From NCBI RefSeq assembly GCF_018129065.1, contig NZ_JAAEDM010000004.1:1-64000 (forward strand): a stretch of 64,000 bases of DNA. The letters are read 5' to 3'. Under the pieces are notes generated by a model that did no database searches, was not told the origin of the DNA, and was given only the letters and a program-made list of their open reading frames with translations. Positions within the stretch are counted from its first letter, which is position 1. Each line of letters begins with the position of its first letter. Positions 8,010 through 33,448 of the stretch are shown here, piece after piece. The translations under genes and the position numbers were made by a program. Source of the stretch: Neoroseomonas soli. Its GTDB lineage: Bacteria; Pseudomonadota; Alphaproteobacteria; Acetobacterales; Acetobacteraceae.

Positions 8010-8016
8010 GACAGAT

Positions 8017-8103
8017 CGCATACGGCTGGAATCAGCCGTATGCGTGAAGATGCTCGCTCAAACATGGCTGGAGCGGTTTCCGCATCGGTGGAAACTGTTC
8101 TAG
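8017..8103 (-). repeat. Two-hairpin ATTC-loop repeat, copy 1
   Basis: Read on the minus strand this unit starts CTAGAACAG, forms a GTTTCC/GGAAAC hairpin, then a linker with GTTTGAGCGAGCATCTTCA. It ends with a perfect 12-bp stem CGCATACGGCTG/CAGCCGTATGCG around an ATTC tetraloop (8017-8044). The linker and loop match copy 2 at 11884-11990, while the stem sequence differs but stays paired. Its outer CTAG supplies the TAG stop of queF. Confidence 0.75.
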
Positions 8104-8573
8104 CCGCGGCCGCGATAGGGCTGGACCTCCTGCGCGGGGATCCACACTCCCTCGGGCGGGCTCCCCGATTGCCAGAACACGTCGATCGGCATGCCGCCGC
8201 GCGGATACCAATAGCCGCCGATGCGCAGCCATACCGGATCGAGCAGCCCCACGAGCCGCTGCGCGATGTCGAGCGTGCAGGCCTCGTGGAAGGCGCCGTG
8301 GTTGCGGAAGGAGGCGAGGTAGTTCTTGAGCGACTTGCTCTCGACGATCCATTCGCCGGGCACGTAGTCGATGACGAGGTGCGCGAAATCCGGCTGGCCC
8401 GTCAGCGGGCAGAGCGAGGTGAATTCCGGCGCGGTGAAGCGCACGCAGTAGCGCAGGTTCTTGTGCGGGGCGTGCACGCGTTCCAGCACCGCTTCCCCGG
8501 GGCTCGCGGGCAGGCGCGTCGGCTGACCGAGCTGCGTCAGGCCGTGATACTCGTGGTCGGGTCCGCCGCTCAT
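8100..8573 (-). CDS. queF: NADPH-dependent preQ0 reductase QueF
   Basis: A 157-residue single-domain (short-type) QueF that reduces the nitrile of preQ0 to the amine preQ1 with NADPH. The catalytic cysteine lies in [14 protein letters not shown] at about residue 54, and the family motif [20 protein letters not shown] follows. Its ATG overlaps the tgt stop in ATGA form, so queA-tgt-queF is one coupled operon on the minus strand. The stop codon is formed by the edge of a two-hairpin intergenic repeat. Confidence 0.97.
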
Positions 8574-9697
8574 GCCGCCTTCTCCTCCTCGCCCGCGCGC
8601 CAGCCGGCCTCGATGCGCGCGGCGGTTTCCTCGAAATGGCCTTCCAGGATCGCGGCCCGCAGTTCGGCCATCAGGTCCTGGTAGTATTGGATATTATGCC
8701 AGGTCAGCAGCATCGGCCCGAGCATCTCCCCCGCCTTGAACAGGTGATGGAGATAGGCGCGCGAATGCCGCCGGCAGGCCGGGCAGGAGCAATCGGGGTC
8801 GAGCGGCCCGTCATCCTCCGCATGTCGCGCGTTGCGGATGTTCAGCACGCCGCGCCGCGTATAGGCCCGCCCCGTGCGGCCCGAGCGCGTCGGCATCACG
8901 CAGTCGAACATGTCGATGCCGCGCCGCACCGCGCCCACCAGGTCGGACGGCGTGCCGACGCCCATCAGGTAGCGGGCGCTGTCCCCCGGCAGCAGCGGCA
9001 CGGTGGTGTCGAGGACGGAGAACATCATCTCCTGCCCCTCGCCGACGGCGAGGCCGCCGACGGCGTAGCCCTCGAAGCCGATGCGGGTCAGGGCTTCCAC
9101 GCTTTCCGCGCGCAGGTCGGGATAGGTGCTGCCCTGCACGATACCGAACAGCCCGTGGCCCTCGCGCTCGGTGAAGGCGTCGCGGCATCGCGCGGCCCAG
9201 CGCATGGACAGCCGCATGGACTCCGCCGCCTGCTTCTCGGTCGCCGGGAATGGCGTGCATTCATCGAGGCACATCGTCACGTCGGCGCCGAGCAGGCGCT
9301 GGATCTCGACGCTGCGCTCCGGCGTCAGGCGGTGCTTCGATCCGTCGATGTGGCTCTGGAAGGTGACGCCCTGCTCGTCCATCTTCCGCAGCCCGGACAG
9401 GGACATCACCTGGAACCCGCCGGAATCCGTCAGGATCGGCCCGTGCCAGTCCATCATGCGATGCAGCCCGCCGAGCCGCCCGACGCGCTCCGCCCCCGGC
9501 CGCAGCATCAGGTGATAGGTGTTGCCGAGCACCATGCGCGCGCCCGTCGCGCGCACCGCATCCGCGGTCATGGCCTTCACCGTGCCGGCGGTGCCGACGG
9601 GCATGAAGACCGGCGTGGGCACCTCGCCATGGGCGGTGTGCAGCACGCCGGCGCGCGCGGCGCCGTCGGTGGCGAGCCGCTTCCAGTGCAGCGTCAT
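8570..9697 (-). CDS. tgt: tRNA-guanine transglycosylase
   Basis: A 375-residue TIM-barrel enzyme that exchanges guanine 34 of GUN-anticodon tRNAs for preQ1. It shows the substrate site [16 protein letters not shown] at about 92-107, the nucleophile region [13 protein letters not shown], and the zinc site CSCPAC followed by a distant histidine. Length is typical of bacterial Tgt. It overlaps queA upstream and queF downstream by 4 bases each. Together with QueF and QueA the operon covers preQ0 to epoxyqueuosine. Confidence 0.98.
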
Positions 9698-10782
9698 GCC
9701 GCGCGCTCCAGCGTTGCGCGGCCGTCCGCGCGCTCCAACAATGAGGCGTCGCCGTAGGAGTAGAAGCGATACCGCTGCGCCACGGCATGCGCATAGGCGG
9801 CCTTCATCCGATCCGTGCCGGCGAAGGCGCAGACCAGCATGAACAGCGTGCTCTTCGGCAGATGGAAGTTGGTCATCAACAGGTCGGCGGTCCGGAAGCG
9901 GTGGCCGGGCAACAGGAAGAGGTCGGTGAGGCCGCGGAAGGGGCGGATGGTGCCGTCCTCGGCCGCGGCGCTTTCCAGCAGGCGCAGCGCGGTGGTGCCG
10001 ATCGCCACGATCCGCCCGCCGGCCGCGCGGGCCGCGTTGATCGTGGCGGCAGCCTCATCGCTTACCTCGCCCCATTCGGCATGCAGGCGATGCGCCCGCG
10101 GGTCGTCGCTGCGCAAAGGCAGAAAGGTTCCGGCCCCGACATGCAGCGTGACGGTCGCCCGCGCCACGCCGCAGGCGGATATGGCCTCGAGAAGGGCGTC
10201 CGTGAAGTGCAGGCTGGCAGTTGGCGCGGCCACCGCGCCGGGGCGTTCGGCGAAGATGGGCTGGTAGTCGGTCGCGTCTTCCGGCCGCGGGCCTTCGGGG
10301 CGGGCGATGTAGGGGGGCAGCGGGATCTCCCCGGCCTGTTCCAGCGCCGCCGCCAGCGCGGCCGGATCGGGACCGAAATCGAGCAGCGCCGCCCCGCCCT
10401 CCGGCGCACCGAGCACCTTCGCGGTGCAGCCCTCGGCGCCTTCGATCTCGATCGTGTCGCCGTCGCGCAGGCGGCGCGCGTTGCGGACCAGGGCATGCCA
10501 GACGCCGCCGCCCTCGGAACGGTTCAGCATCACCTCGATCCGCGCGGCGCCGCGGCGGGCGTGCAGGCGGGCCGGAATGACGCGGGTGTCATTCACCACC
10601 ATCACGTCGCCGGGGCGCAGCAGGCCGGGCAGGTCCCGCACGCCGGCATCGTCCAGCCCGCCCCGGCGCACCACCAGCATCCGCGCGGCATCGCGCGGCC
10701 GCGCGGGGGCCTGGGCGATCAGGTCCTCGGGCAGGTCGAAATCGAAATCGGCGGTGCGGAGAAGCGGCAGGTCGGCGGGCAC
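9694..10782 (-). CDS. queA: S-adenosylmethionine:tRNA ribosyltransferase-isomerase
   Basis: A 362-residue enzyme that transfers and isomerises the ribosyl part of SAM onto preQ1-tRNA to make epoxyqueuosine. Family features seen are the start [44 protein letters not shown] and the C-terminal [20 protein letters not shown]. The first in-frame start is GTG at 10782 and lacks a clear ribosome site, but homology begins within a dozen residues, so the start cannot lie far downstream. First gene of queA-tgt-queF, divergent from the metallophosphoesterase gene. Confidence 0.97.
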
Positions 10783-10866
10783 GGCGGGGCGGTAGCCCGC
10801 GCGGGCGGGCGGTGCAACCTTCGCCGGAGGCGGCTAGCGTGCCGCCGCCAGCACCGGAGCCCCGCC

Positions 10867-11886
10867 TTGCGCCTCTGCCTGCCGCCGATCCTTGTCCTGC
10901 TGCTCGCCTGGGCATTGCCCGCCGGCGCCGAGCCCATGCGCTTCGCCGCCTTCGGCGACATGCCCTACCGCGCCGAGGACGAACCGCGCGTCCTCACCCT
11001 GACCGCCGAGGTGAACCGGCGGGCGCCGGCCTTCACCGTGTTCCTCGGCGACACGAAATCCTCTCGCGAGCCCTGCACGGAGGAGATGCTCGTCACCCGC
11101 CCGCAGCGCGTCTTTGCCCGCTTCGATCGGGCGGTGATCTACACGCCTGGCGACAATGAATGGACTGATTGCGCGCCCCGTGGTCCCGGGGAAAGCGGGC
11201 CCGCCGACGCGCTGGGACGCCTGCGGGAGGCCTTCTTCGGCGGGCCGACCTCCCTCGGCGGGCGGCCGATCCGCCTCGAGCGGCAGGGCGGGCGCGGCGG
11301 GCCCTTCGGGAAGGAAACCGAGAACGCGCGCTGGACCCACGCCCGCATCCTCTTCGCAACGCTGAACCTGCCGGGCGTGCCGCGGCCCGAATTGCCCGGC
11401 GCGCGCCAGGTCCAGCCGGAGGCGCTGCTCATCCTGCCCCGCCTGGCCGCCGCCGCCGCCGTCTGGATCGATGAGACCTTTGCCGAGGCCCGCCGGAAGC
11501 AGGCGCGGGCGGTGGTCCTCGCCTTCCAGGCCGACCTCTGGCACCCCTGCCACATGGTCGCGGCACCGGATTGCCGCGCCCGGCCGGTCGCCTCGGGCGG
11601 GGAGGCGGGGACGCGGGCGCTGCGCGACCTGCCCTATGATGTCGGGATGGTGCTGGGGCGCATTGCCGATGGCGCGCGCGCCTTCCGCCGGCCCGTGCTG
11701 CTGCTGCACGGGGATGGCCACACCTACCTGGTGCAGTCCTGGCCGTCGGACGGGCACGGCGGCACCATCCCGCATGCGACGCGCATGATGGTGCCCGGCA
11801 ACCGGGAAGTCGCCGCCCTGCTGATCCGCGCCGATCCCGAGGCGCGGATCCCCTTCGTGGCGGAACTGGTCCGCGCGGCCGAATAG
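10867..11886 (+). CDS. Secreted metallophosphoesterase-like protein
   Basis: A 339-residue protein with a signal peptide (LCLPPILVLLLAWALPAGAE). It appears to start at TTG 10867, since GGAG lies 7 bases upstream and the signal begins there. No ATG fits in front of the signal. The body carries a calcineurin-like series: GDMPY, FLGDTKSS, TPGDNEW and LLHGDGHTY. This suggests a two-metal phosphoesterase fold acting in the periplasm. The usual DxH of motif I is not obvious (GDMPY), so catalysis is uncertain. It lies alone between divergent queA and convergent hyuB, and its TAG stop forms the left edge of a two-hairpin repeat. Confidence 0.72.
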   Translation: MRLCLPPILVLLLAWALPAGAEPMRFAAFGDMPYRAEDEPRVLTLTAEVNRRAPAFTVFLGDTKSSREPCTEEMLVTRPQRVFARFDRAVIYTPGDNEWTDCAPRGPGESGPADALGRLREAFFGGPTSLGGRPIRLERQGGRGGPFGKETENARWTHARILFATLNLPGVPRPELPGARQVQPEALLILPRLAAAAAVWIDETFAEARRKQARAVVLAFQADLWHPCHMVAAPDCRARPVASGGEAGTRALRDLPYDVGMVLGRIADGARAFRRPVLLLHGDGHTYLVQSWPSDGHGGTIPHATRMMVPGNREVAALLIRADPEARIPFVAELVRAAE

Positions 11887-11990
11887 AGCGGCCTCCATTC
11901 GCAGCGGCGCACGGCAACCGCTCCAGGCGCTTGTTTGCGCGGGCATCTTCATCCGATCGGGTGATTCCACCTGATCGGGGCCTGTTCTAG
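11884..11990 (+). repeat. Two-hairpin ATTC-loop repeat, copy 2
   Basis: A 107-bp repeat fills the gap between two convergent genes. It opens TAGAGCGG, pairs GAGCGG (11886-11891) with CCGCTC (11918-11923), has the linker GTTTGCGCGGGCATCTTCA, then an 11-bp stem (CCGATCGGGTG/CACCTGATCGG, one G-U pair) around ATTC at 11964-11967. It closes with TGTTCTAG. The TAG at its left is the stop of the phosphoesterase, and the CTA at its right is the stop of hyuB. It may act as a bidirectional terminator. Confidence 0.75.
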
Positions 11991-13597
11991 TCCCGGACGT
12001 AGCCGAGCCGGAGGTCGCGCGCCGCGACCTCCGCGTCGCGTTCGGCCGGGTCGCCGTAGCCACCGCCGCCGGGCATCTCCACCACGATGCGGTCGCCGGC
12101 GGGGACGACGTGGAAGCCCTTGGGCCGGAGTTCCTCGCCGGAAGCGAGGGAAAGCCGCCCGCGCGCGCCGTCCTGCCCGCCCGCGCGGCCGCGTGCCGGG
12201 TGCTTCACCCGCTCGAAGGTGGCGAAGATGCCGAAGGGCTCGCCGTCCCGGCGGCCGACCTCGATCACCTGTCCGAGGCCGCCGCGCTGGCGCCCGGCCC
12301 CGCCGGAGCCCTCGCGCAACTCCTTCTTCCAGAAGACAAGCGGCGTGATCGCCTCGGTCACTTCCACCGGGACGTTGCGCACGCCGGAGGGGAAGGGCGT
12401 CGCCGAGAGCCCGTCCAGGTTCGGCCGCGCGCCCGTTCCGCCCGAGTGGAAGGACGTGATCATGAAGGCCGGCCCCTTTGGCCCCGTGTAGCCGGGCCCG
12501 GCGCCGAGCTTCAGGTTCCACAGGTTGGACGTGCCCTCCGCCGGCACGCGGCCAGGGATCGCCTGGTCGAGCGCGCCGTAGACCACGTCGGGCAGCATGT
12601 GTCCCATGGTCGAGCGCGCGGTGACCGGGAAGGGGAAGGGTGCATTGACGATCGAGCCCTCGGGCGCGGTGACGATCACGGCGTCCAGCGTGCCGGCATT
12701 GTTCGGGATCTCCGCGCCCACCACGCATTTCACGCCGAAGGCGGTGTAGGCCTCCGTGTAGCAGAGCGGGCAGTTGATGCCGAAGGGCACCGCGGCCGAG
12801 GTGCCGGCGTAGTCCACGGCGATGTGGTCGTCGGCGATCGTGACCGTGGCGTGCAGGTCGATCGGCTCGTTCACGCCGTCGATGCGCATGTGGGATTTCC
12901 ACGTGCCCTTCGGCAGCTTCCGGATCGCCGCCGTCATGCCGGCGCGGGAGCGGGTGATGATGTAGTCCCCGAGCGCGTCGAGGTCCGCGAGCCCGTGCTC
13001 GGCGAGCATGGCGGACAGGCGCCTCTCGCCCGTCTCGTTGCAGGCCATGAGCGCGAAGACGTCCCCTTCCACCTGCACCGGCTCGCGCACATTGGCGCGG
13101 ATGATGCGCATCACCGTCTCGTCCACCACGCCTTCGCGCGCGAGCGGGATCAGCGGGATGAACAGCCCTTCGTGGAAGACCTGCTTGCCTTCCGCCGACT
13201 GGCCGACGCCGCCGATGTCCACCAGATGCGTCGTCGAGGAGAAGAGCGCGACGAGCTTCCCGTTGTGGAAGGCAGGCGAGGTGACCACCAGGTCGTAGAG
13301 ATGCCCGGTCCCCTTCCAGGGATCGTTGGTGATGTAATGGTCGCCCGGCTTCATCGTGTGTGCCGGGAACTCCCTGAGGAAATGCACGACGCTGCGCGCC
13401 ATGGAGTTCACGTGCCCCGGCGTGCCGGTCACGGCCTGGGCCAGCATCTGCCCGTCGAGGTCGAAGACGCCGGCGGAGATGTCTCCCGCCTCGCGCGCGG
13501 AGGTGGAGAACGCCGTGCGCACCAGCGTGCGCGCCTGCTCCTCCACCACCGAGAGCAGGCGGTTCCACATGACCTGGAAGCGGATGTCGGTGTTCAT
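11987..13597 (-). CDS. hyuB: Hydantoinase B / oxoprolinase family protein (set 1)
   Basis: A 536-residue HyuB-type subunit. Together with HyuA it forms ATP-dependent enzymes that open five-membered cyclic amides (N-methylhydantoin, 5-oxoproline) or related carboxylases. Family features: TSAREAGDISAGVFD near residue 32, GDHYITNDPW, the HLVDIGG region, NAPFPFPVTARSTMGH and the glycine-rich end EMPGGGGYGDPAERD. It overlaps hyuA by 4 bases (ATGA) and is the last gene of Bug-hyuA-hyuB. The exact substrate cannot be read from sequence. Confidence 0.92.
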   Translation of the reverse strand: MNTDIRFQVMWNRLLSVVEEQARTLVRTAFSTSAREAGDISAGVFDLDGQMLAQAVTGTPGHVNSMARSVVHFLREFPAHTMKPGDHYITNDPWKGTGHLYDLVVTSPAFHNGKLVALFSSTTHLVDIGGVGQSAEGKQVFHEGLFIPLIPLAREGVVDETVMRIIRANVREPVQVEGDVFALMACNETGERRLSAMLAEHGLADLDALGDYIITRSRAGMTAAIRKLPKGTWKSHMRIDGVNEPIDLHATVTIADDHIAVDYAGTSAAVPFGINCPLCYTEAYTAFGVKCVVGAEIPNNAGTLDAVIVTAPEGSIVNAPFPFPVTARSTMGHMLPDVVYGALDQAIPGRVPAEGTSNLWNLKLGAGPGYTGPKGPAFMITSFHSGGTGARPNLDGLSATPFPSGVRNVPVEVTEAITPLVFWKKELREGSGGAGRQRGGLGQVIEVGRRDGEPFGIFATFERVKHPARGRAGGQDGARGRLSLASGEELRPKGFHVVPAGDRIVVEMPGGGGYGDPAERDAEVAARDLRLGYVRD

Positions 13598-15666
13598 GCG
13601 GCCGTCTCCAGCACGATCTGGTGCAGGGCGTTGATGCGCGCGGTGGTGCCGCGCGGGACCACGGTCGTGGTGCCGTCCTCGACGATCAGCGCGGGGCCGG
13701 CGAGCGTCATGCCGGGGGCGAGGGATGCGCGCTCGTGCAGCGCCGCGGCTTCCGTCGCGCCGGTCGCCGGATCGGTCACCTCCCGGCTGCCGCGCGGCGG
13801 CGGGGCGGGCAGGGATGGCGGATCCGGCACCCGCGCGGGCAGCGGCCGCGCGGCGGACAGCGAGAGGGCGAAGGTCATCGCCTCCACCTCCAGCCGCGGG
13901 ATGACGCGGCCGAAGAGGGTCGTGTAGGCGGCCTCGAAGCTGCGGTGCAGGCCGGCCGCATCGGTTGCCTCGAAGGCGCGGGCGGGCAGCGGCACGGCGA
14001 TCTCGTGCCCCTGGCCGCGATAGCGCATGAAGCCGGTGCGGGTTTCCGTCAGCGCGGCGGCGGGCGCGCCCATGCGGACCACCGCCTCGGCCTCCGCCCG
14101 CATCTCCGCGAAAAGCAGGTTCAGCGCCGCCGCATCGAAGGCATCGAGGCGCATGTGCCGGCTGCGCACCACCTCATAGGCGATCGGCGCGCGCAGGAAG
14201 CCGTGCGCGGAACCCACCCCCGCGCCCACCGGCACCACGACCCGCGCGATGCCGAGCTTCTGCGCCAGTCGCGCGGCATGCAGCGGCGCCGCGCCCCCGA
14301 AGGCGATCATGGCACGGCCGGCCGTATCCTTGCCGTTCTCCACGGCATGCACGCGGGCGGCATTGGCCATGGTCTCGTCCACGATTTCGGCGATGCCCAC
14401 GGCGCCCTGCCTCGGCGGCATGGCGAGCGGGGCGGCGACACTGTCGCCCACCACGGCCTCGGCGCGCGCGACGTCGAGCGCGATCGACCCGCCGGCGAAG
14501 CGCGCGGGATCGAGCCGGCCGAGCGTCGCATCCGCATCGGTGACGGTCGGCGCCGTTCCGCCGCGCCCGTAGCAGGCGGGGCCCGGCACGCTGCCCGCGC
14601 TGTCCGGCCCGACCAGGATGCGCCCGAGCGCATCGACGCGCGCGATCGAGCCGCCGCCGGCGCCGATCTCCACCAGCTCGATCACCGGGATGCGCACCGG
14701 CAGGCCGCTGCCCTGGATGAAGCGGTAGGCGCGCGCCACCTCGAAGGACCGCGAGCGCTGGAATTCGAGATCGTCGATCAGCGTCAGCTTCGCCGTGGTG
14801 CCGCCCATGTCGAAGGCCAGCACCTGCCCGAGCCCGTTCTCGGCGGCGACGGCCTGCGCAAGGATCGCCCCGCCCGCGGGCCCGCTTTCCACCAGCCGGA
14901 CGGGATAGCGCCGGGCCGTCTCGACCGTGGTGACGCCGCCCGAGGACATCATCAGCAGCAGCGGGCAGTCGAGCCCGGCCTCCTTCAGCCCCTCCTCCAG
15001 GGCCGCCAGGTAGCGGCCCATCAGCGGCAGGACATAGGCATTGGCGATGGTGGTGGAGGCGCGTTCGTATTCCCGGATCTCGGGCGCCACCTCGGAGGAG
15101 ATGGTGACGGACGCGCCCGGCATCTCCTCGGCGAGGATCTCCGCCGCGCGACGTTCGTGCGCCGGGTTGGTGAAGGAATGCAGGAAGCAGATCGCCACCG
15201 CCTGGATGCCGCGCCCGCGCAGGCTCCGCGCCGTGGCGCGCACGGCGTCCTCATCCAGCGGCAGCAGGACCGAGCCATCCGCCGCGACGCGTTCCCTCAC
15301 GCCGAGGCGCAGGTCGCGCGGCACCAGCGGCTCGGGCCGCTGCATCGACAGGTCATATTGCTCGAAGCGGTGTTCGTAGGCCATCTCGACGGAATCGCGG
15401 AAGCCTTCCGTCGTCAGCAGGGCGGTGGGCGCGCCCTTGCGCTCGATCAGCGCATTGGTCGCGAGCGTCGTGCCGTGGACCACCAGCCCGACCTCCGCGG
15501 GCGCGCAGCCGGCGGCGGCGAGGATGGCGCTGGCACCTTCCAGCACGGCACGCTCGGGCGCCTCGGGCGTGGTGAGCAGCTTCATCTCATGGGTGCCGCG
15601 CGGCGTCTGCAGCACGAGGTCCGTGAAGGTGCCGCCGATGTCGACGGCCAGGCGCGAGTCACCCAT
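13594..15666 (-). CDS. hyuA: Hydantoinase A / oxoprolinase family protein (set 1)
   Basis: A 690-residue HyuA-type ATP-binding subunit. The actin-like ATPase start VDIGGTFTDL is at residues 8-17, followed by VVHGTTLATNALIERKG, the conserved ISSEVAPEIREYERAST, MMSSGGVTTV, VLAFDMGGTTAKL and GAGGGSIARVDALG. It probably phosphorylates the cyclic amide or lactam before HyuB-linked hydrolysis. Its start overlaps the end of the upstream Bug gene by 8 bases, and its stop overlaps hyuB by 4, so all three are co-translated. This paralogue is clearly distinct from the second HyuA at 19952. Confidence 0.93.
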   Translation of the reverse strand: MGDSRLAVDIGGTFTDLVLQTPRGTHEMKLLTTPEAPERAVLEGASAILAAAGCAPAEVGLVVHGTTLATNALIERKGAPTALLTTEGFRDSVEMAYEHRFEQYDLSMQRPEPLVPRDLRLGVRERVAADGSVLLPLDEDAVRATARSLRGRGIQAVAICFLHSFTNPAHERRAAEILAEEMPGASVTISSEVAPEIREYERASTTIANAYVLPLMGRYLAALEEGLKEAGLDCPLLLMMSSGGVTTVETARRYPVRLVESGPAGGAILAQAVAAENGLGQVLAFDMGGTTAKLTLIDDLEFQRSRSFEVARAYRFIQGSGLPVRIPVIELVEIGAGGGSIARVDALGRILVGPDSAGSVPGPACYGRGGTAPTVTDADATLGRLDPARFAGGSIALDVARAEAVVGDSVAAPLAMPPRQGAVGIAEIVDETMANAARVHAVENGKDTAGRAMIAFGGAAPLHAARLAQKLGIARVVVPVGAGVGSAHGFLRAPIAYEVVRSRHMRLDAFDAAALNLLFAEMRAEAEAVVRMGAPAAALTETRTGFMRYRGQGHEIAVPLPARAFEATDAAGLHRSFEAAYTTLFGRVIPRLEVEAMTFALSLSAARPLPARVPDPPSLPAPPPRGSREVTDPATGATEAAALHERASLAPGMTLAGPALIVEDGTTTVVPRGTTARINALHQIVLETAA

Positions 15667-16618: not shown

Positions 16619-16858
16619 GGCGGGCTCTCCCAGCGAGGGCACGAGCATGGGCCAGGCTTCGCGGTTGCGAAACCCCCTCCTCCGCCCTGCTGCCGCCGAA
16701 GGCAGCGACGGGCCGTTCTGCCGCCCGGCGGGGCATCGCCGTGCGCGCGGGCCCCGAAGGCGCGGGTGCCGCCCCTCGACGCATCGCCCGACGCGTGGTC
16801 GAGTGTCGTCATGCGGGCGGACGGAAGATCCGACCCCGGTCAACAGGAGGAGTTTGCG

Positions 16859-19931: not shown

Positions 19932-19951
19932 ACCAATTCGGGAAACGCTGC

Positions 19952-24119: not shown

Positions 24120-24168
24120 CTTCACGCGCTTCCCCCGTCGCGCCACACTCGGCGCGACGGAGGAAACC

Positions 24169-24702: not shown

Positions 24703-24703
24703 C

Positions 24704-25636: not shown

Positions 25637-25713
25637 CCGCTTCCTCCTGCCTGCTTGTCGGCGCAGGCCTCTGGCGGCAGGCTAACGGGAAGCGATGAGA
25701 AAGTGATAGGTGC

Positions 25714-27390
25714 ATGAGCGGGACTATGACGGGCGGGAACTGGCTGGCAGCGAGCCTGGCCGCCTCCGGCCAGACCCATGTCTTCTTCGTCGATGCGGTG
25801 CTGCGGCGCACATTGCTCGCGCTGTCGGAGGCGGGCGTCGCGCCGGTGCTCGCGCATACCGAGAAGGCGGCGGTCTACATGGCCGACGGCTATGCCCGCG
25901 TCTCGGGCCGGCCGGGTGTCGTGGCGGTGCAGTCGGTGGGTGCGGCGAACCTCGCGGCGGGGTTGCAGGATGCGTATCTCGCGCGGACGCCCATCGTCGC
26001 TTTGACGGGGCGCAAGGTTCCGGCGCACCAGAACCGCAACGCCTACCAGGAACTTGAGCACGCGCCGCTCTTCGCGCCGGTGACGAAGCTTCGCGCCGAC
26101 GTGGCCGAGGCCGCCGACCTGCCGCGCGCGCTGCGCCAGGCCTTCGCCGCCGCCACGGCGATGCCGCCGCGGCCCGTGCATCTCGACCTGTTTGGCCTGC
26201 AGGCGGAAGTCGTCGAAGGCGGCGCAGTCCCGGCGCCGGCCGCGGACCTCTCGGCCTTCCGCACGCCGATGCACCGGCCGGAACCTGATCCTGCCGCGAT
26301 CGCCGCGGCCGCCGCGGCACTGCGCGCGGCGCCGCGCGTCGCGATCGTCGCGGGGGATGGCGCGGCGCTGTCCGGCTGCGGGGCGGAACTGCTGGCCGTG
26401 GCCGATGCATTGGCCGCGCCCATCGCGACCGCGCTCGGCGCGCGCGGCATCGTCTCCACGCGCCATCCCCTGCACATCGGCGTGGCGGGCGCCTACGCGG
26501 CGCCGCCGGCGAACCGCATCCTCCAGGATGCCGACCTGATCCTCATGGTCGGCGCCGATACGGGCGACATGCTGACCAACTACTGGCGCACGCCGAAGGC
26601 CGGCGCGCAGGTGGTGCAGATCGACGCCGATCCGCTGGAATTCGACCGCTCCTACCCCGCCATCGTCGCCGTGCAGGCGGACCCACGGGCGGGGCTGCGC
26701 GCGCTTGCGGCGGCATTGGGCAAGCCGTCGCGTGACGGCGCCTACCTGGCCGCGGCGCAGGCGCGCATGGCGGAGTGGCGGGCGGAGGTCGCGCCGCGCC
26801 TCGCCAGCGCGGCCGCGCCCATCGACCCCGCGCGACTCGCCGCCGAGATCACCGCCGCGCTGCCCGCCGATGGCATCCTCGTCGCGGATACCGGCTATTC
26901 CGGCATCTGGACGGGCACGCTGGTCGATCTGGAACCGTCACAGACCTACCTGCGCGCCGCGGGCTCGCTCGGCTGGTCCTTCCCTGCCGCGCTGGGCGCG
27001 AAATGCGCGGCGCCGAATCGGAAGGTCGTCTGCTGGACGGGAGACGGCGCGCTCTACTACCACTTGGCGGAACTCGAGACTGCGCGCCGCCGCGGCATCG
27101 CCGTGACGCTGGTGGTGAACAACAATTCCGGCTTCGGCCAGGGTTGGCCGAACCTGGTGCGCCAGGCTGGCAACCGGCCCGATGCGGCCGCCGAGTTGCT
27201 GCGCTTCGGCCCGACCGACTTCACGCAGGTCGCCCGGTCCTTTGGCCTCGACGGCATCCGCGTCGAACGGCCGGAGGATATCGGCCCGGCGCTGAAGCGC
27301 GCCATCGCCGCCGACCACACCATGGTGGTGGACGTCGCCACCGACATCGAGGCCCGCGCCCCCGCGCCCTGGGCCCCTGAAGGAGCCTGA
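25714..27390 (+). CDS. Thiamine pyrophosphate-dependent enzyme (acetolactate synthase-like)
   Basis: A 558-residue TPP enzyme. The activating glutamate is in HTEKAAVYMADGYAR (about E50). The cofactor motif GDGALYYHLAELETA comes late, with VVNNNSGFGQG completing the metal site. A central domain (AIVAGDGAALSGCGAEL) resembles the nucleotide-binding domain of acetolactate synthases. First gene of a three-gene unit with a 3-hydroxyacyl-CoA dehydrogenase-like protein and an SDR, which suggests decarboxylation or ligation of a 2-keto acid followed by two oxidoreductions. The start is weakly supported; ATG 25726 is an alternative. Confidence 0.86.
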   Translation: MSGTMTGGNWLAASLAASGQTHVFFVDAVLRRTLLALSEAGVAPVLAHTEKAAVYMADGYARVSGRPGVVAVQSVGAANLAAGLQDAYLARTPIVALTGRKVPAHQNRNAYQELEHAPLFAPVTKLRADVAEAADLPRALRQAFAAATAMPPRPVHLDLFGLQAEVVEGGAVPAPAADLSAFRTPMHRPEPDPAAIAAAAAALRAAPRVAIVAGDGAALSGCGAELLAVADALAAPIATALGARGIVSTRHPLHIGVAGAYAAPPANRILQDADLILMVGADTGDMLTNYWRTPKAGAQVVQIDADPLEFDRSYPAIVAVQADPRAGLRALAAALGKPSRDGAYLAAAQARMAEWRAEVAPRLASAAAPIDPARLAAEITAALPADGILVADTGYSGIWTGTLVDLEPSQTYLRAAGSLGWSFPAALGAKCAAPNRKVVCWTGDGALYYHLAELETARRRGIAVTLVVNNNSGFGQGWPNLVRQAGNRPDAAAELLRFGPTDFTQVARSFGLDGIRVERPEDIGPALKRAIAADHTMVVDVATDIEARAPAPWAPEGA

Positions 27391-27394
27391 CTTC

Positions 27395-28357
27395 ATGTCC
27401 CGCGTCGCAGTTCTCGGTGCCGGCACCATGGACCACGCCCTGGCGCTGGTCTTCGCCCTCGGCGGCCATACGGTGCGGCTGACCGACAGCAACCCCGAGA
27501 CCCTCGGCCGCGCGCAGGGGTTGATGGAAAAGGCGCTCGCCACGCTGGCGGCGGCGGGGGAGGCGCCCGAGGGCTGGACCCCGGCCCATCTGGCACAGGC
27601 GGTGACGCGGCACGAAAGCCTCGCCGACTGCGTCGAGGGCGCGGAACTGATCGTGGAGGCGATCGTCGAGAACCCGGAGGCGAAGACCACGCTCTACGCG
27701 CAGCTCGATGCGGTGGCGCCGGAGGATGCGATCATCGCCTCCAACACCTCCTACCTCGACATCTTCCCGCTGATGCCGGCGGCGCGGCAGCGCAGGACGC
27801 TGATCGCGCACTGGTACACGCCACCCTACCTCGTGGACCTGGTGGACATCGTCGGCGGGCCGGAAACCGATCCCGCCGCCATCGAGACGGTGCGCGCCAT
27901 GGTCGCGGCCATGGGCAAGCAGCCCATCGTCATGCGGAAATTCGTCCCCGGCTACATCGCCAACCGCATCCAGTCGGCGATCGGGCTCGAGGTGCAGCAA
28001 CTGCTCGACGACGGCGTGGCGACGGCCGAGGAGATCGACGCCGCCATCATCCACGGCATCGCGCTGCGCCTGCCGATCCTCGGCGTGCTCGCGAAGGCCG
28101 ATTTCACGGGCCTGCCGATGATGCAGCATGCGCTGAAGAACAAGATGTACGCGCCGCCGCCCGTGCGCGGCCGCAGCGAGAGCCTCGACAGGCTGGTCGC
28201 CGCCGGCAGGACCGGCGTGATGTCCGGCGCCGGCTTCTACGACTGGGCCGGCAAGGACCCCGCGACGCTGTTCGAGGAGCGCGACCGCCGCCTGCTGGCG
28301 CTGCGGAAGGCGCTCAGGGAGATCGGCACCATGGCAGGACTGGAGCGCGACGCATGA
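27395..28357 (+). CDS. 3-hydroxyacyl-CoA dehydrogenase family protein
   Basis: A 320-residue NAD-dependent dehydrogenase. The N-terminal Rossmann motif is VAVLGAGTMDHALA, followed by EAIVENPEAKTTLY and ASNTSYLDIFPL (the conserved SNTS), HWYTPPYLVDLV, and the hinge KFVPGYIANRIQ into the C-terminal helical domain. The usual HFFNP is HWYTP here, so the substrate is probably a free or smaller hydroxy acid and not a long acyl-CoA. AAGGAG lies 9 bases upstream, and the gene starts 4 bases after the TPP enzyme stop. Confidence 0.88.
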   Translation: MSRVAVLGAGTMDHALALVFALGGHTVRLTDSNPETLGRAQGLMEKALATLAAAGEAPEGWTPAHLAQAVTRHESLADCVEGAELIVEAIVENPEAKTTLYAQLDAVAPEDAIIASNTSYLDIFPLMPAARQRRTLIAHWYTPPYLVDLVDIVGGPETDPAAIETVRAMVAAMGKQPIVMRKFVPGYIANRIQSAIGLEVQQLLDDGVATAEEIDAAIIHGIALRLPILGVLAKADFTGLPMMQHALKNKMYAPPPVRGRSESLDRLVAAGRTGVMSGAGFYDWAGKDPATLFEERDRRLLALRKALREIGTMAGLERDA

Positions 28358-29124
28358 TCCGCTACGACCTCAAGGGCAAGACGGCGCTGGTGACCGGCGG
28401 CGCCTCGGGCATCGGCCTCGCCACCGCGGTGATGCTGCTCGATTCGGGCGCGAAGGTCGCCATCAACCACCTCGCGGACGATCCGCGCGGCCCGGACGTG
28501 GTGGCGAAGCTGCGCGCCAATGGCCGGCACGCCATCTCCGCCCCCGGCAATGTCGGCGACGCCGAGGACTGCGTGCGCATGGTGAACCAGGCGGTCGCCG
28601 ACCTCGGGCGGCTCGACTACCTGGTGAACAATGCCGGCACGCCCGGCACGAGCAGCATCATCCGCCCGCAGGAACTCGACCGCCTGACGGAGGATCTTTG
28701 GGAGACGGTGCTGCAGGTGAACCTGCTCGGCGTCTTCCGCTGCACCAAGGCGGCGGCGCCGGCGTTGAGGGCGGCAGGCGGGGCAGTGGTCAGCGTCGCG
28801 TCCATCGCCGGCTTCGACAGCCCGGGTTCGTCCATGGCCTACGGCGCCACCAAGGCGGGCGTGATCAGCCTGACGAAGAACCTTGCGCGCTCCCTGGCGC
28901 CGGAGGTGCGGGTGAACGCCATCGCACCGGGCGCGGTCGATTCCACCTGGATGGTCGAATGGACCGAGGAACGGCGCCAGGTGAGTGCCGAGAAGGCGCT
29001 GCTCAAGCGCCGCTGCCAGCCGGCGGACCTCGCGGAGGTGATGGTCTTCCTGCTGGCCGGCGCCGCGATGGTCACGGGCCAGACGATCGTGGTCGATGGC
29101 GGCCTGACGCTGGAGAGCCGCTGA
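28354..29124 (+). CDS. Short-chain dehydrogenase/reductase
   Basis: A 256-residue classical SDR. Cofactor loop VTGGASGIGLA at about 13-23, NNAG segment (VNNAGTPG), catalytic serine in VSVASIAGF and the YxxxK pair in AYGATKAGV. The C-terminus is the usual VTGQTIVVDGGLTL. Oxidises or reduces an alcohol/ketone with NAD(P). Coupled by ATGA to the preceding dehydrogenase, so the TPP enzyme, the dehydrogenase and the SDR probably serve one catabolic route. FabG activity cannot be excluded but the context argues against fatty-acid synthesis. Confidence 0.93.
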   Translation: MIRYDLKGKTALVTGGASGIGLATAVMLLDSGAKVAINHLADDPRGPDVVAKLRANGRHAISAPGNVGDAEDCVRMVNQAVADLGRLDYLVNNAGTPGTSSIIRPQELDRLTEDLWETVLQVNLLGVFRCTKAAAPALRAAGGAVVSVASIAGFDSPGSSMAYGATKAGVISLTKNLARSLAPEVRVNAIAPGAVDSTWMVEWTEERRQVSAEKALLKRRCQPADLAEVMVFLLAGAAMVTGQTIVVDGGLTLESR

Positions 29125-29184
29125 CCGGTCCGGCGCCGGCCGCTCGTGCTCCCGCGGGGCGCGCCGGTGCCGAATGGCCGCCCG

Positions 29185-29394
29185 TCAGGTGGCGTTGCCG
29201 GCCGCGCGGTGAAGGGCGCCGACCATCGTCGCCAGCGCCGCCAGGCCGCGCTGACGGTCCGCATCGGCGAGCGGCAGGCGCAGCAGCGTGCCCGCGCAAC
29301 CGCGCAGGTGCAGTTCCGCGCTCCCGGTCGATTCCAGCAGGGCGACAGAGGAAAGATCCTCTTGTCGGGGACGGGGAAGCGCCAGGTCGGTCAT
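29185..29394 (-). CDS. Small hypothetical protein
   Basis: A 69-residue frame starting at ATG 29394, with GTGAGG 6-7 bases upstream. It reads MTDLALPRPRQEDLSSVALL and is mostly helical and leucine/alanine-rich, with G/C-biased third positions. No signal peptide, membrane segment or family recognised. It lies convergent to the SDR gene in an otherwise empty 400-base gap. A spurious frame remains possible. Confidence 0.45.
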   Translation of the reverse strand: MTDLALPRPRQEDLSSVALLESTGSAELHLRGCAGTLLRLPLADADRQRGLAALATMVGALHRAAGNAT

Positions 29395-29533
29395 TTTCGG
29401 CCTCACTGAAAGCAGCGCCGCGATCTTGCGCTTCGCCTAGGTGAGCGCATCAGGCTTGCCCGAGAGTTAACCCGATGCCTTGCCCGGATGGTTTTTGCGC
29501 CACAGCATGGCGGAGCGTTTGAGGAACCTGCCC

Positions 29534-30736
29534 ATGCCGACGATCGACACCGACCGCTTCCTGCGGGACCTGAACGACCTCAGGAAGATCGGCGCCTACA
29601 AGACCGGCGTGCATCGCCCGACCTATTCCCCGCAGGACATGGAGTCGCGCCGCTGGCTGATGGAGCGTCTCGCCGAATGCGGGCTCGAGCCCTCCATCGA
29701 CGGCATCGGCAACGTGTACGGGCGGCACAAGGGGCCCGGGCCGCATCTGCTGGTGGGCAGCCACATCGAGAGCCAGAACTACGCTGGCTGGCTGGACGGC
29801 GCGCTGGGCGTCGTTGCCGGCGTCGCACTCGCGCGCGCGGGCCTGCCGGTGGACGTCTGCGCCTTCGCCGATGAGGAAGGGCATTTCGAGGGCGGATTCC
29901 TCGGCTCCCGCTCCATCATCGGCGAACTGAGCGACGAGGAGATCGACCGCAGCCGCAGCCGCAACGACGGCCAACCGCTGCGCGACGCGCTCGCGGAGGC
30001 CGGCCTCGCCGGCAAGCCGCGCATGCAGCTCGAGCCCGGCCGGCACAAGGGCTTCTTCGAGATGCACATCGAGCAGGGAACGCAGCTCGAATCCCGCGGC
30101 CTGCGCGTCGGCGTCGTCACCGGCATCGTCGCCATCTGGCAGTGGCTGATCGAGTTCGCCGGCCAGCAGGACCACGCCGGCGGCACCACCATGGCCGAGC
30201 GCAAGGATGCCGGCCTTTCCGCCGTGCGCCTGCTTGCCGCCATCGACCGCGAATTCCCGCTCGTCTGCGGTGAGCGCTCGACCTGGACGACCGGGCGCAT
30301 CGCGCTCGAGCCTGGCGCGCCCTCCATCATCCCAGGCTCGGCCGAGGTGCTCTTCCAGTTCCGCGACGTCTCGGTCGAGGTGCTGGAGCGCATGGAGCGC
30401 ACCCTCCGCGCCCTGGTGCAGGAGAGCAACCGGCGGGAGAAGTGCCCCGCCACGCTGACGCAGAAGTCCCGCGCCACGCCCGCGCTCTGCGACCCGGCGA
30501 TGATGGCCGCCCTCGACGCCGCGGCGCAGGAGGAAGCGTCCGGTGCCTGGATGCGCCTGCCCTCCGGCGCCGGCCACGACGCGCAGTACATCGCCAAGCG
30601 CATGCCGGCGGCGATGCTGTTCACGCCCTCGATCGGCGGCATCAGCCACCACTGGGCCGAGGACACGAAGGAAGAGGACCTGGCGCTCTGCTGCCAGGTG
30701 CTGGGCAATGCGGCTGGGCGCTACCTGAAGGGGTAG
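29534..30736 (+). CDS. Zn-dependent M20-type amidohydrolase (allantoate / N-carbamoyl amino acid type)
   Basis: A 400-residue member of the AllC/AmaB branch of peptidase family M20. Metal-site segments are VGSHIES with WLDGALG (about 75-92), FADEEGHFEG, EMHIEQGTQLE, QQDHAGGTTM and SGAGHDAQY. These enzymes cleave the carbamoyl or ureido group from N-carbamoyl amino acids or allantoate. I chose ATG 29534 because GAGGAAC lies just upstream. Two earlier in-frame ATGs (29480, 29507) lack a site. It could act on ring-opened hydantoins from the HyuAB operons, an inference from chemistry. A paralogue lies at 61314. Confidence 0.9.
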   Translation: MPTIDTDRFLRDLNDLRKIGAYKTGVHRPTYSPQDMESRRWLMERLAECGLEPSIDGIGNVYGRHKGPGPHLLVGSHIESQNYAGWLDGALGVVAGVALARAGLPVDVCAFADEEGHFEGGFLGSRSIIGELSDEEIDRSRSRNDGQPLRDALAEAGLAGKPRMQLEPGRHKGFFEMHIEQGTQLESRGLRVGVVTGIVAIWQWLIEFAGQQDHAGGTTMAERKDAGLSAVRLLAAIDREFPLVCGERSTWTTGRIALEPGAPSIIPGSAEVLFQFRDVSVEVLERMERTLRALVQESNRREKCPATLTQKSRATPALCDPAMMAALDAAAQEEASGAWMRLPSGAGHDAQYIAKRMPAAMLFTPSIGGISHHWAEDTKEEDLALCCQVLGNAAGRYLKG

Positions 30737-30740
30737 TGCC

Positions 30741-32321
30741 CTAACCCTCCGCGCCGTAGGCCCCCGTGCCCACTGCCCGGCCGAGCGCCTGAGCAGGTGT
30801 CGGACCGGCGAGGTCGCCGGGCAGGGCGGCGGCGAAGGCCACGCGGCGCGGGCACTGGTCGCCGGCGAGCCTCGCCCGCAGGAAATCCCGCAGCTCGGCC
30901 GCGAGGTCCGGCCCGGGCCGCGCCCCCGGGCTTGGGATGACGATAGCGGTGGCCTCGCCGAGGCTTGCCGCCTCCGCGGCGCCGATCAACGCGGCCGTGG
31001 CGACCGCCGGGTGCTGGCGCAGGCAGCGTTCCACCGCCGCGTGCGCGGCCTCGGCGTCCTCGGGCGCTGCGTGCTGCGTCAGCGGCGATAGCCGGCCTTC
31101 GGTGTCGAGCGTGCCGCTCTCCCCGGTCAGCAGCCAGGGGCCGCGGAAGGCTGCGGCAGTGGCCGCGGGGTCCTGCCAATAGCCGAGGAAGATCCCGGGG
31201 TCGGGCCGGCGCAGCGCGATCGCGCCGGATTGCCCTGCCGGCAGCGGCATCCCGTCCGGCCCGAGGACCGCGATGCGGCGCCCCGGCACCGCCCGCCCGA
31301 CCGAGCCGGGCGGCTGCATGTCGTCATCCGGGCCCGTCGCGGCGATCACGCCGCATTCCGGCAGCGCATGGGCCTCGACGACCGAAGCACCGAACGCATC
31401 GCGCAGATCGGCATCGAGCGGCCCGTCGAAGGTGGCAAGGGCTGGCAGGCGCTGGATGGGGCGGCTCGTCACCGCGTCCCGCATCCGGCGCAGTGCGGCG
31501 GCCGGGAGCACGGCGGCGCCGATATCGCCCCGCGCCAGGATGCGCAGCGCGCGTTCGGGCTCGATGCCCTCTGTCGCCAGGGTCAGCACCGGCACGCCGC
31601 GACCGAGCGCCGGCAGCACGGCGTCGAGCAGGCCGCCGCGCCCCGCCCAGTCCCCCGGCGCCCACAGCAACTGACCTTCCCGGAGCCCGGGCACATGGCC
31701 GGACAGTGCCCGATGGGCGTGCAGCACGCCGCGCGGCGTGGCGCCGTAGAGGAGCAGCGCGGGCGCGCCGGCGTCGGTCGCGAGGGCGGGGAAATCCGTG
31801 CTGGCGCGCTCCATCTCCTGCCACAGGGAGAGGGCGCCCGCTGCCGCGCCGTCGGCGCAGAACACCAGGCGCAGCGCCGGAAGCCGGTGGCGAATCGCCG
31901 CGAGCGCCGGCATCCCGGCGGCGTCGGTGACGAGGCCGGCGCAGCCGGCGTGGCGGAGCCGGACGGCGAGCCCCTCCGGCGGCAGCGACCTTGCGAACGG
32001 CACCGCGATGGCGCCGAGGCGGAGCGCCGCGAGCACGGCGAGGAGCGCTTCCGGCCCCTGCGGCAGGAGGATGCCGAGGCGGTCACCGCGGCGGATGCCC
32101 CGCGCGCTCAGGACATGGGCGAGCCTGGCGGAGTTCGCGCGCAAGGCGTCGAAGGTGATCCGCTCGGCCCGGCCGTCGCGGCGCAGGTGGAACAGTGCGG
32201 TGCGGCCGGAGCCGTCCACCAGCCCGCCGCTGCAGACGGCCGCGACGTTAAGGGCTCGCGAGGAGGGCCGGCGGGAATCGCCAGGCTGCACGTGGCGCGC
32301 GGGGGCGCTGCCGGGGCGCAC
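30741..32321 (-). CDS. Adenylate-forming (AMP-binding) family homologue without lysine
   Basis: A 526-residue protein with the overall order of acyl-CoA synthetases: an N-terminal LRRDGRAERITFDALRANSA, LLPQGPEALLAVLAALRLGAI, a LFxLPE-like middle (VVEAHALPECGVIAATG), GSVGRAVPGRR and FLGYWQDP. Core catalytic motifs are degraded. The P-loop (S/T)SGTTGxPKG is LLYGATPRGVLH, the GRxDD hinge is missing, and the C-terminal catalytic lysine is absent. In fact I find no lysine in the whole protein. It starts at GTG 32321 with GGAAGGG 7 bases upstream. Probably a non-adenylating relative (binding or hydrolytic role), or a decaying gene kept in frame. Convergent with the amidohydrolase, 4 bases apart. 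Confidence 0.75.
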   Translation of the reverse strand: MRPGSAPARHVQPGDSRRPSSRALNVAAVCSGGLVDGSGRTALFHLRRDGRAERITFDALRANSARLAHVLSARGIRRGDRLGILLPQGPEALLAVLAALRLGAIAVPFARSLPPEGLAVRLRHAGCAGLVTDAAGMPALAAIRHRLPALRLVFCADGAAAGALSLWQEMERASTDFPALATDAGAPALLLYGATPRGVLHAHRALSGHVPGLREGQLLWAPGDWAGRGGLLDAVLPALGRGVPVLTLATEGIEPERALRILARGDIGAAVLPAAALRRMRDAVTSRPIQRLPALATFDGPLDADLRDAFGASVVEAHALPECGVIAATGPDDDMQPPGSVGRAVPGRRIAVLGPDGMPLPAGQSGAIALRRPDPGIFLGYWQDPAATAAAFRGPWLLTGESGTLDTEGRLSPLTQHAAPEDAEAAHAAVERCLRQHPAVATAALIGAAEAASLGEATAIVIPSPGARPGPDLAAELRDFLRARLAGDQCPRRVAFAAALPGDLAGPTPAQALGRAVGTGAYGAEG

Positions 32322-33000
32322 CTCAGCGCCCTTCCGTCGTGGCGGTCGAAGCCTGGGTCATGAGCGAGTCCATGTGGCTGTGCCACCCCTGGGAGTGTCG
32401 CCGGCACCGCCGGGAGCCTGGGCTCGTCTGCGCTGCCGGAATGAATTCAGTATTCAGCCTAATAACGAAATCGTGCAATCGCCAAATATCGATACATCTG
32501 CAAAAATACAGCAGGAAAACTACTCAAGCGTGTTCAGTTAATATTGTCTTCCCGCGGAAGTGATGCTGTTCGGTGCGATCATCACGTCCGGTATGGGGTC
32601 AGACGCTCACGATCGCGTGAAGTGAGAAGCGTATCCCCGGATGCAATCGGCCGGGACGGGGCGGTCTCGGTTCAGGGCCTTCGGAACCTCCGCTGCGCGC
32701 GCCGCGTGCATCAGTGCCGCCGCAGCCGCCGCTTCGGTGGTGACGTCACGGCCGGCGATCATCCTGGCGGCACCTTGCGATGCGGGCCTTTATCGACGGG
32801 TCGCGGCGCGTCGCCGGCAGCCATGGGGCGGGGCGCCCAGCCCGACGCAGTGAGTCTTTTCGGCAACACGGCGTCGTTACCTTCGGCCCGGCGAGCCCTT
32901 GCGCACAGTTTTCACGCCAGATTGCTGATCACATGCGCATGATGACGCTCGAGTGCGGCAAAGGGGGCACCCCGCGGCGTCAAGCACGGGTGATCTGAAC
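32322..33000. other. Gene-poor gap with an AT-rich patch
   Basis: No gene is convincing here. Bases about 32441-32550 are clearly poorer in G/C than everything around them (runs such as AATAACGAAATCG and GTTAATATTG), then composition returns to normal. Short open frames at 32544-32942 and 32641-32853 have mixed third-position use and no strong ribosome site. The patch could be a promoter region or a remnant of transferred DNA. Confidence 0.5.
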
Positions 33001-33204
33001 GTGAACCATTACGTTGAAGGCGCGATCATTCAGCAGCGCATGAGTTCGGCGTCCGGCATGGACCCGGTCATGGACGACCCGGTCCTGGCGGCCGCCGCGG
33101 CAGTCGAGCAATGCCTCGCCAATGCGCATGAGGCTGGCAAGGAGGAGGCGGTGCGCCTCCTGCATGCCGTCTTCGCGCTGCTGACGGCGGCACCCCGGCA
33201 CTAG
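33001..33204 (+). CDS. Small hypothetical protein
   Basis: A 67-residue frame from GTG 33001 (GGTGA 7 bases upstream), reading MNHYVEGAIIQQRMSSASG and then an alanine- and leucine-rich helix ending LLHAVFALLTAAPRH. Codon third positions are mostly G/C, unlike the preceding 500 bases, which supports a real gene. ATG 33040 is an alternative start. The TAG stop shares its last base with the MITE-like repeat. No family recognised. Confidence 0.5.
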   Translation: MNHYVEGAIIQQRMSSASGMDPVMDDPVLAAAAAVEQCLANAHEAGKEEAVRLLHAVFALLTAAPRH

Positions 33205-33322
33205 TGTCCTGATTCCGAAATCCTGCGGACGTCGTTCTCAGGCCACTAGCCTTTGTCTTCAGTGGCCTGCTTGTCCGATTCGTTCGCAGGAAATCCAGCG
33301 AACTTCGCGGGCAGGACACCAG
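33201..33322 (-). repeat. MITE-like element, copy 2
   Basis: The reverse-oriented partner of the 7.9-kb element: 116 bp from GTGTCCTG (33204-33211) to CAGGACAC (33312-33319), and 122 bp if the outer CTA/CAG bases are included. Terminal repeats are perfect over 8 bp. The AGGCCACT/AGTGGCCT arm pair is kept, while the GTTCGC arm has one mismatch. It abuts a two-hairpin repeat directly on its right side. Confidence 0.8.
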
Positions 33323-33448
33323 AGCAGCGTCCGGTCGAGTGGAACCGCTGCGCGGATCCGCCGACCGGACAAAAGCTGCTCTAGATTCAAAGTTTTCGAG
33401 AGCAAGAAATCCGATCAGGTGATTCCACCTGATCGGATATTGCTCTAG
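33321..33448 (+). repeat. Two-hairpin ATTC-loop repeat, copy 3
   Basis: The first hairpin pairs AGAGCAGC (33321-33328) with GCTGCTCT (33375-33382), and inner TCCGGTCG with CGACCGGA. The second pairs AGAGCAA (33399-33405) with TTGCTCT (33440-33446) and a perfect 12-bp stem TCCGATCAGGTG/CACCTGATCGGA around ATTC (33422-33425). It ends CTAG. The second hairpin matches copy 2 closely, and the first is more elaborate. It lies 45 bases past the pdeM stop. Confidence 0.75.

Follow-up and report, generated by a model that had tools for sequence, protein, structure and literature searches.

The first 64,000 nucleotides of contig NZ_JAAEDM010000004.1 of the acetobacteraceous alphaproteobacterium Neoroseomonas soli, here called the window, contain three copies of a two-hairpin repeat, which are members of a large family of gene-free DNA elements of about 108 bases found in many alphaproteobacteria; these elements are probably mobile, and their tips often serve as the stop codons of neighbouring genes. 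Copy 1, a 98-bp subtype delimited by covariance-model matches (positions 8006–8103, minus strand), holds in its terminal CTAG (8100–8103) the TAG stop of the called queF-II gene, encoding preQ1 synthase (8100–8573, minus strand; TIGR03139, E 3.3e-42, and PF14489). Copy 2 (11883–11990, plus strand), of the 108-bp main subtype, lies between two convergent genes and provides, with its tips ATAG (11883–11886) and CTAG (11987–11990), the TAG stops of both according to the gene calls, namely of an unnamed gene without a Pfam or NCBIfam match at E ≤ 0.001 on the left (10867–11886, plus strand) and of a hydantoinase B gene on the right (11987–13597, minus strand; PF02538, E 3.5e-145). Copy 3 (33319–33448, plus strand) represents a subtype with a longer hairpin 1, of which two more copies are present (L012 and L042), yet it is matched end to end by the model; the three copies represent subtypes of a single family. 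A second, more general model, derived from copies in other genomes, recovers copies 1, 2 and 3 with E values of 3.7e-14, 5.5e-20 and 2.4e-14 respectively.

The element is outlined by TAGAGC, hairpin 1, a linker with TTTGTTTT, hairpin 2 and GCTCTA, and the consensus of 46 loci reads cTAGAGC, hairpin 1, CTCtag, a linker with TTGtttt, GaGCA, an internal loop, hairpin 2 and TGCTCTAg. Hairpin 2 thereby possesses a further outer stem, GAGCA/TGCTC, which encloses the internal loop, and the terminal inverted repeat is imperfect, with CTAGAGCGGTTTCCG and CTAGAGCAGATCCCG identical at 12 of 15 positions. An inverted-repeat scan located the inner stem and loop of hairpin 2 at 8017–8044 (minus strand, with 12-bp arms and the loop ATTC), 11953–11978 (plus strand) and 33407–33440 (plus strand). 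The original prediction, which had described stems of different sequence that nevertheless pair, an apical ATTC loop closed by TG/CA and a GTTTG..GCG..GCATCTTCA linker common to two of the copies, is borne out in each of these respects for the window. That the loop is always ATTC does not extend to the genome, where GANTC is found in just 90 of the 130 copies in which hairpin 2 could be located, ATTC being the commonest loop and AGTC the second; the loop seems invariant in our first alignment because its copies were picked by that loop. A GANTC loop kept as a site for the methyltransferase CcrM is suggested by these 90 of 130 copies in the own genome, but is not claimed as a conserved signal, because the AGTC loops, which comprise 24 own copies, may be a single subfamily and GANTC is kept in 25 of 46 copies from other genomes. 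In the window as a whole, GANTC occurs 60 times compared with about 167 times expected from base composition. Three subtypes exist in the N. soli genome, and one locus (L041) seems to combine hairpin 1 of one with hairpin 2 of another.

The original prediction would have been refuted had the family consisted of the three copies alone, which is by no means the case. The core pattern STGATTCCAS matches the genome 56 times compared with a single match for the reversed-pattern control (a first pattern, CSTGATTCCASG, had been wrongly drawn and gave no matches). Seven of the 56 matches show no clear hairpin as judged by eye, among which L002 may be a decayed copy; these were skipped together with two matches where the element lies on the opposite strand, and with three copies of the long subtype and two others also omitted, 42 copies made up the first alignment (A1). 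The covariance model derived from A1, in which both hairpins are represented together with the outer stem of hairpin 2, recognizes at least 146 matches in the 5.24-Mb genome at E ≤ 0.01, and all three copies of the window are among them. This number is a lower bound, since scoring was limited to 150 candidates and the matches lack two copies of the copy 3 subtype; it includes one pair overlapping on opposite strands and five matches shorter than 90 bases. Exactly 108 bp are measured for 74 of 140 copies, and the copy closest to the consensus is identical to it at 107 of 108 positions. Three tandem arrangements (G000:C3:63002–63203, C79:7425–7635 and C6:83287–83499) consist of copies that overlap by their terminal four bases, as if one had inserted into the end of the other.

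With the own genome counted and under stricter filters, matches were obtained in 73 of 120 genomes of the family (E ≤ 0.001) and in 18 of 289 genomes of the class (E ≤ 1e-4). Exact core matches were found in 15 named stretches from Neoroseomonas, Pseudoroseomonas, Plastoroseomonas, Paracraurococcus, Roseicella and Elioraea. Among the sister species, 800 kb of Neoroseomonas marina (G104) hold two model matches and 800 kb of Neoroseomonas eburnea (G411) hold 22. Searched against plasmids, copy 1 yielded two hits, each with E 0.9.

The position of the elements relative to genes was assessed with a gene caller that uses a simple codon model trained on the window, by which 140 of the 146 matches could be placed in context, the remaining six not being covered. 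Seventy-eight copies lie between convergent genes, 43 between tandem and eight between divergent genes, three lie inside a called gene and eight have no called neighbour; the convergent share (78 of 129) is far above that of the junctions of the window (8 of 51, p = 5e-8). A stop codon is situated exactly at the terminal position of the element at 73 of 201 ends which face the 3′ end of a gene (elements below 90 bp were excluded from this count as well as from the outer-base counts below). Over all 140 copies, 68 share at least one stop at the terminal position and six share two, which amounts to 74 shared stops, 71 of them TAG, two TAA and one TGA, with the TAG of a neighbouring gene supplied by 66 copies. 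Independently of the gene caller, the longest frame was determined at ends that carry TAG with 120 open codons or more. The frame that ends in the TAG of the element is the longest at 73 of 100 ends in the own genome, compared with 36 of 93 control ends without TAG, and leads at 53 of 81 ends in other genomes (against an expectation of one third, p = 4e-9). These divide into 13 of 19 ends for N. eburnea, 21 of 27 for single copies from 23 other genomes of the family, 16 of 23 for three genomes of two other families and 3 of 12 for G058. Loci without sufficient length on each side of the element had been dropped, so that 23 of 27 single-genome loci and 26 of 30 loci from the three genomes of other families (L117 and L119 not listed) were used. 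At positions 30734–30743 of the window two convergent genes, both ended by TAG, are four bases apart with no element between them, and the orthologous stop in N. eburnea bears an element-like tip.

Copies 1 and 3 each abut a different repeat of similar design, 122 bp long, with which they have the terminal four bases in common. Identified by pattern and context, the repeat adjoining copy 1 (7888–8009, minus strand) has the ends CTAGTGTCCTG and a linker like CTTTGTTTT, and its CTAG at 7888–7891 holds the TAG stop of a TctC-family gene (6899–7891, plus strand; PF03401, E 2.1e-37); the one adjoining copy 3 is located at 33201–33322 (plus strand). This second family has 31 pattern matches in the genome compared with one for the control, and its length is taken from eight copies matched end to end. 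It likewise has CTAG ends, 16 of 30 distinct ones being in-frame stops by the gene caller. Other repeats were encountered in passing, such as a further palindromic intergenic motif like CCAAAGGCCGAAAGGCCTTTGG, recurrent at gene ends in other Neoroseomonas (L165, L331, L161 and L295), a tandem minisatellite with an array of the 27-base unit GCTGGAGCGCGCGGACAACCGCGCGAC (L173, G437:C19) and, in the own genome just past the copy at 1257 of G000:C20, a tandem array of the seven-base unit CCTCCAG.

Pairing is preserved despite changed sequence, and this part of the original prediction has proved correct. In a MAFFT alignment with one copy from each of 27 genomes (A4), RNAalifold predicts 27 pairs, 20 of which show double changes that preserve the pair. 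When 55 matches are aligned by fitting to the structure of the model (A2), double changes are found in 24 of 26 pairs, 92.3% of the cells pair compared with 73.3% in shuffled and 32–45% in slid controls, and 249 double-change cells contrast with 64.9 in the shuffles and at most 53 in the slid controls. Among the 42 own-genome copies of A1, double changes concern 13 of 26 pairs and largely represent the difference between two subtypes. Selection at the RNA level on one strand predicts that G-U pairs outnumber A-C mismatches. The counts of G-U versus A-C cells are 54 versus 74 (three stems of 74 own copies), 29 versus 35 (A2) and 15 versus 16 (A4). A five-pair register of the hairpin 1 inner stem differs, with 35 G-U against 4 A-C in own copies, but the register picked by RNAalifold has 6 versus 5. 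Because G-U is not clearly commoner than A-C, the conserved pairing is taken, on balance, as that of a DNA palindrome rather than of an RNA. Many resident copies have lost pairs, with 576 of 666 cells of the hairpin 1 outer stem being Watson-Crick, as is expected if the structure serves spreading and not each individual site. In 72 own copies divergence is 0.04–0.09 in stem columns and 0.17 in the linker; as the unpaired internal loop, with 0.04, behaves like the stems, the low value is not read as selection on stems, but leaves room for some constraint after insertion.

Sites at which a sister species lacks the copy bear on how the elements come to share stop codons. For the copies at C5:2556 and C20:1257 the empty site in N. 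marina carries NTAG, for the copy at C38:35655 the empty site in N. eburnea carries NTAG one codon off, and a copy of N. eburnea corresponds to an empty NTAG site in N. marina; the compared flanks are about 75–90% identical and belong to sister species, not to strains of one species. We regard it as likely that the repeats are non-autonomous mobile elements of about 108 bp, similar to miniature inverted-repeat transposable elements (MITEs), which insert with duplication of TA at YTAR or CTAG, often at stop codons. They have the appearance of MITEs in being short, non-coding and dispersed in many near-identical copies, and in possessing terminal inverted repeats. A transposase provided in trans would recognize the terminal inverted repeat CTAGAGCrGhTyCCG together with the palindromes of a core which extends from GAGC over hairpin 1, the linker and hairpin 2 to GCTC, with TA bounding each side, and insertion would occur at TA, preferably within YTAR or CTAG, and duplicate the TA. 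As CTAG is rare inside the genes of these genomes and present mostly in stop codons and intergenic DNA, insertions are seen chiefly at the 3′ ends of genes. The TA together with the first G of the element would restore TAG in the original frame on either side, and since both strands of the element start with G, the end of a single gene, or of both genes of a convergent pair, would be preserved. The palindromes, we infer, would be kept for mobility and not for a function in the host. In the window, CTAG occurs 15 times, its only occurrences within called genes being three stops associated with repeats.

If CTAG stops are consumed as targets, their remaining stock is informative. C precedes 70 of 121 element-free TAG stops in N. 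marina, 15 of 89 in N. eburnea and 9 of 61 in the own loci, the latter share not being a random sample since these loci were chosen around elements. The share of TGA stops preceded by C is similar throughout (57, 52 and 53% in N. marina, N. eburnea and the own loci respectively), and N. eburnea does not have fewer CTAG sites within genes at a distance from stops (about 18 versus 12, derived), so that the scarcity of CTAG stops in the element-rich genomes is not accounted for by CTAG being lost generally. Furthermore, should TA be duplicated and G be the first base of the element, the ancestral codon can be read from the base that lies outside the far TA. When the shared stop is at the left end, a purine is found at this far base in 23 of 24 cases; when it is at the right end, the far base has a purine as its complement in 36 of 37. 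The free sides, which are under no such rule, fit in 21 of 24 and 27 of 37 cases (p = 0.004), and copies with two shared stops do so in 5 of 6 and in 6 of 6.

Several observations weigh against insertion with TA duplication at pre-existing stops by a mobile DNA element. Copies which share no stop show nearly the same outer bases (66 of 69 and 61 of 69), and a general YTAR preference therefore explains much of the pattern; in addition, some of the far sides in this test belong to an abutting repeat. The ATAG end of copy 2 implies an ancestral TAT, which is not a stop, for the hydantoinase gene. By a tally done by hand, 11 element-bearing stops correspond in element-free orthologs to TGA only in eight cases, TAG only in two and a mixture in one, compared with 12 TAG only, five not and one mixed for 18 element-free TAG stops (p = 0.018 once mixed cases are set aside). 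Had TAG already been there as the target, the two groups should not differ; some insertions may instead convert TGA, or the change of stop preceded them. The TA duplication is deduced from end patterns and from the comparison with sister species. One genome, G058, is without stop sharing, the TAG frame leading at only 3 of 12 ends (14 of its 30 loci used). Finally, no autonomous partner with the same ends was found by a genome search for the terminal pattern or among matches to PF13340 and PF01797, the only families searched, and the element is for this reason named MITE-like and not a proven MITE. All 63 mismatch-free matches of the terminal repeat in the genome are situated inside model matches. 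As candidates for an IS5-type partner, three PF13340 matches were inspected and discarded as none has matching ends. A six-base inverted TAGAGC pair at L348 was also rejected, with little further identity and a 186-aa protein that matches DUF4096 only. Such open reading frames (ORFs) of 186–187 aa, with DUF4096 and no catalytic transposase domain in Pfam, are present at L348:1180–1740 and L349:1180–1740 (both minus strand), and the encoded proteins might perhaps be domesticated DNA-binding domains.

The ortholog comparison leads to the explanation that fares best among the alternatives, according to which the element enters at TGA stops and converts them to TAG without TA duplication, for example at T|GA with the ends AG..CT. 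The eight of 11 element-bearing stops that are TGA only in relatives, five of these eight being CTGA, are what such an entry predicts. CTGA is, however, read at just two of the 24 right ends whose copies share a stop on the left, the four empty sites carry NTAG, and CTAG stops are scarce in the element-rich genomes, which leaves entry at TGA an unlikely route compared with insertion at YTAR or CTAG.

A function in the host would be given if the copies were retained as bidirectional terminators or stabilizers of RNA 3′ ends between convergent genes, with hairpin 1 and the T-rich linker that follows it bringing about termination. The convergent placement of 78 of 129 classified copies, the linker itself, the pairing conserved between genomes and the stem columns, less divergent than the linker, would all suit this role. 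The T-rich linker is, however, present on one strand only, and no significant orientation preference is seen, as 24 copies share a stop at the hairpin 1 side and 37 at the other (p = 0.12) with six sharing at both. With no clear G-U excess, with the decay of pairing in resident copies and with the disparity between N. marina and N. eburnea in copies per 800 kb, maintenance by the host for termination seems improbable, and the terminator suggested in the original prediction, like its RNA feature, finds no support.

Of the three guesses the original prediction had made, a REP-type element comes nearest. Repetitive extragenic palindromic (REP) sequences and their hairpin-forming doublets (REPINs), moved by the REP-associated tyrosine transposase (RAYT), are palindromes at the 3′ ends of genes, and passages of one report describe GTAG termini of REPs as TAG stops and REPs located between convergent and unidirectional ORFs (PMC3733652). 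In the N. soli genome, however, no match to the corresponding domain Y1_Tnp (PF01797) was obtained, 5 of 14 control genomes being positive; the units are of about 108 bp and not 20–40 bp, TA is present at both ends, and it is mostly C and not G that precedes TAG. Mobilization as REPs by a RAYT is thus doubtful. A structured non-coding RNA family, for which the strong covariation and the G-U-rich register of the hairpin 1 inner stem might speak, is very improbable given that Rfam yields no match in the window and for one good copy just two far below the gathering score (E 1.1 and 3.6), that G-U does not exceed A-C in the other stems or across genomes and that stop codons are overlapped in both orientations.

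Starting from the MITE-like reading, a wider hypothesis can be put forward tentatively, and we hold it to be possible rather than probable. Both families of the window, the copies in Acetobacteraceae and the RIME-like repeats of rhizobia could form a class-wide superfamily of two-palindrome elements which parasitize stop codons, with CTAG as target and a terminal G that repairs the stop on both strands. By continued insertion such elements would have emptied element-rich genomes of most of their free CTAG stops and reshaped stop codon usage, and they would require their hairpins as DNA for a transposase other than RAYT. If true, a common architecture and a single target rule would unite scattered intergenic repeats of alphaproteobacteria, no function in the host would be needed to explain why they are located at the 3′ ends of genes, and a non-coding element would change the stop codons available to a genome. 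Covariation in repeats of this type is not in itself proof of an RNA, for here pairing is conserved between genomes although resident copies decay and wobble pairs are not clearly in excess.

Bacterial MITEs with a TA target, such as ERIC/RU-1, Correia/NEMIS and RUP, are elements of about 100–130 bp, non-coding, foldable and of high copy number; they reside in different hosts, and the likeness is one of description. Closer is the Rhizobium-specific intergenic mosaic element RIME1, attributed to Osteras (1995), which is reportedly 108 bp long, contains two large palindromes and is found in many intergenic copies; the model of the two-hairpin element also has 108 positions and two hairpins, the comparison drawing on the description of RIME1 and not its sequence. 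Sequences with such an architecture are present in 350 kb of the Sinorhizobium meliloti plasmid pSymB, one of them (E 0.23) with a CTTTGTTTT linker and a GCTCTAG end. Differently from RIME1, the present family is one of Acetobacteraceae, and the seven matches of the general model on pSymB are weak (E 0.0009 to 0.6). Intergenic repeats of rhizobia to which no function is assigned include the RIMEs (PMC2573895). No account of stop codon sharing by RIME1, and no description of the two-hairpin family in Acetobacteraceae, was found in the open-licence papers searched.

In Brucella, the insertion sequence IS711 duplicates TA at YTAR and was found inserted in the 103-bp palindrome Bru-RS1, as passages of two reports state (PMC3163539; PMC2266754). 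Compared by description only, the Bru-RS1 and Bru-RS2 repeats resemble the present system as palindromic intergenic repeats, Bru-RS1 of 103 bp, with YTAR sites, in that the second family is located here on the CTAG ends of the first; there an insertion sequence enters the repeat, whereas here the repeats themselves seem to be mobile. Stop sharing as such is already known for another class of repeats, the GTAG REPs associated with RAYT, whose termini often provide flanking ORFs with TAG stops and which are located downstream of genes or between convergent ones (PMC3733652). The two have in common that the tip of a repeat supplies TAG and that placement is at 3′ ends and convergent; the two-hairpin element differs in its length of about 108 bp, in CTAG or TA at both ends and in a genome without a Y1_Tnp match. 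The two-hairpin family is filed here as a RIME-like, MITE-like element with a stop codon target rule.

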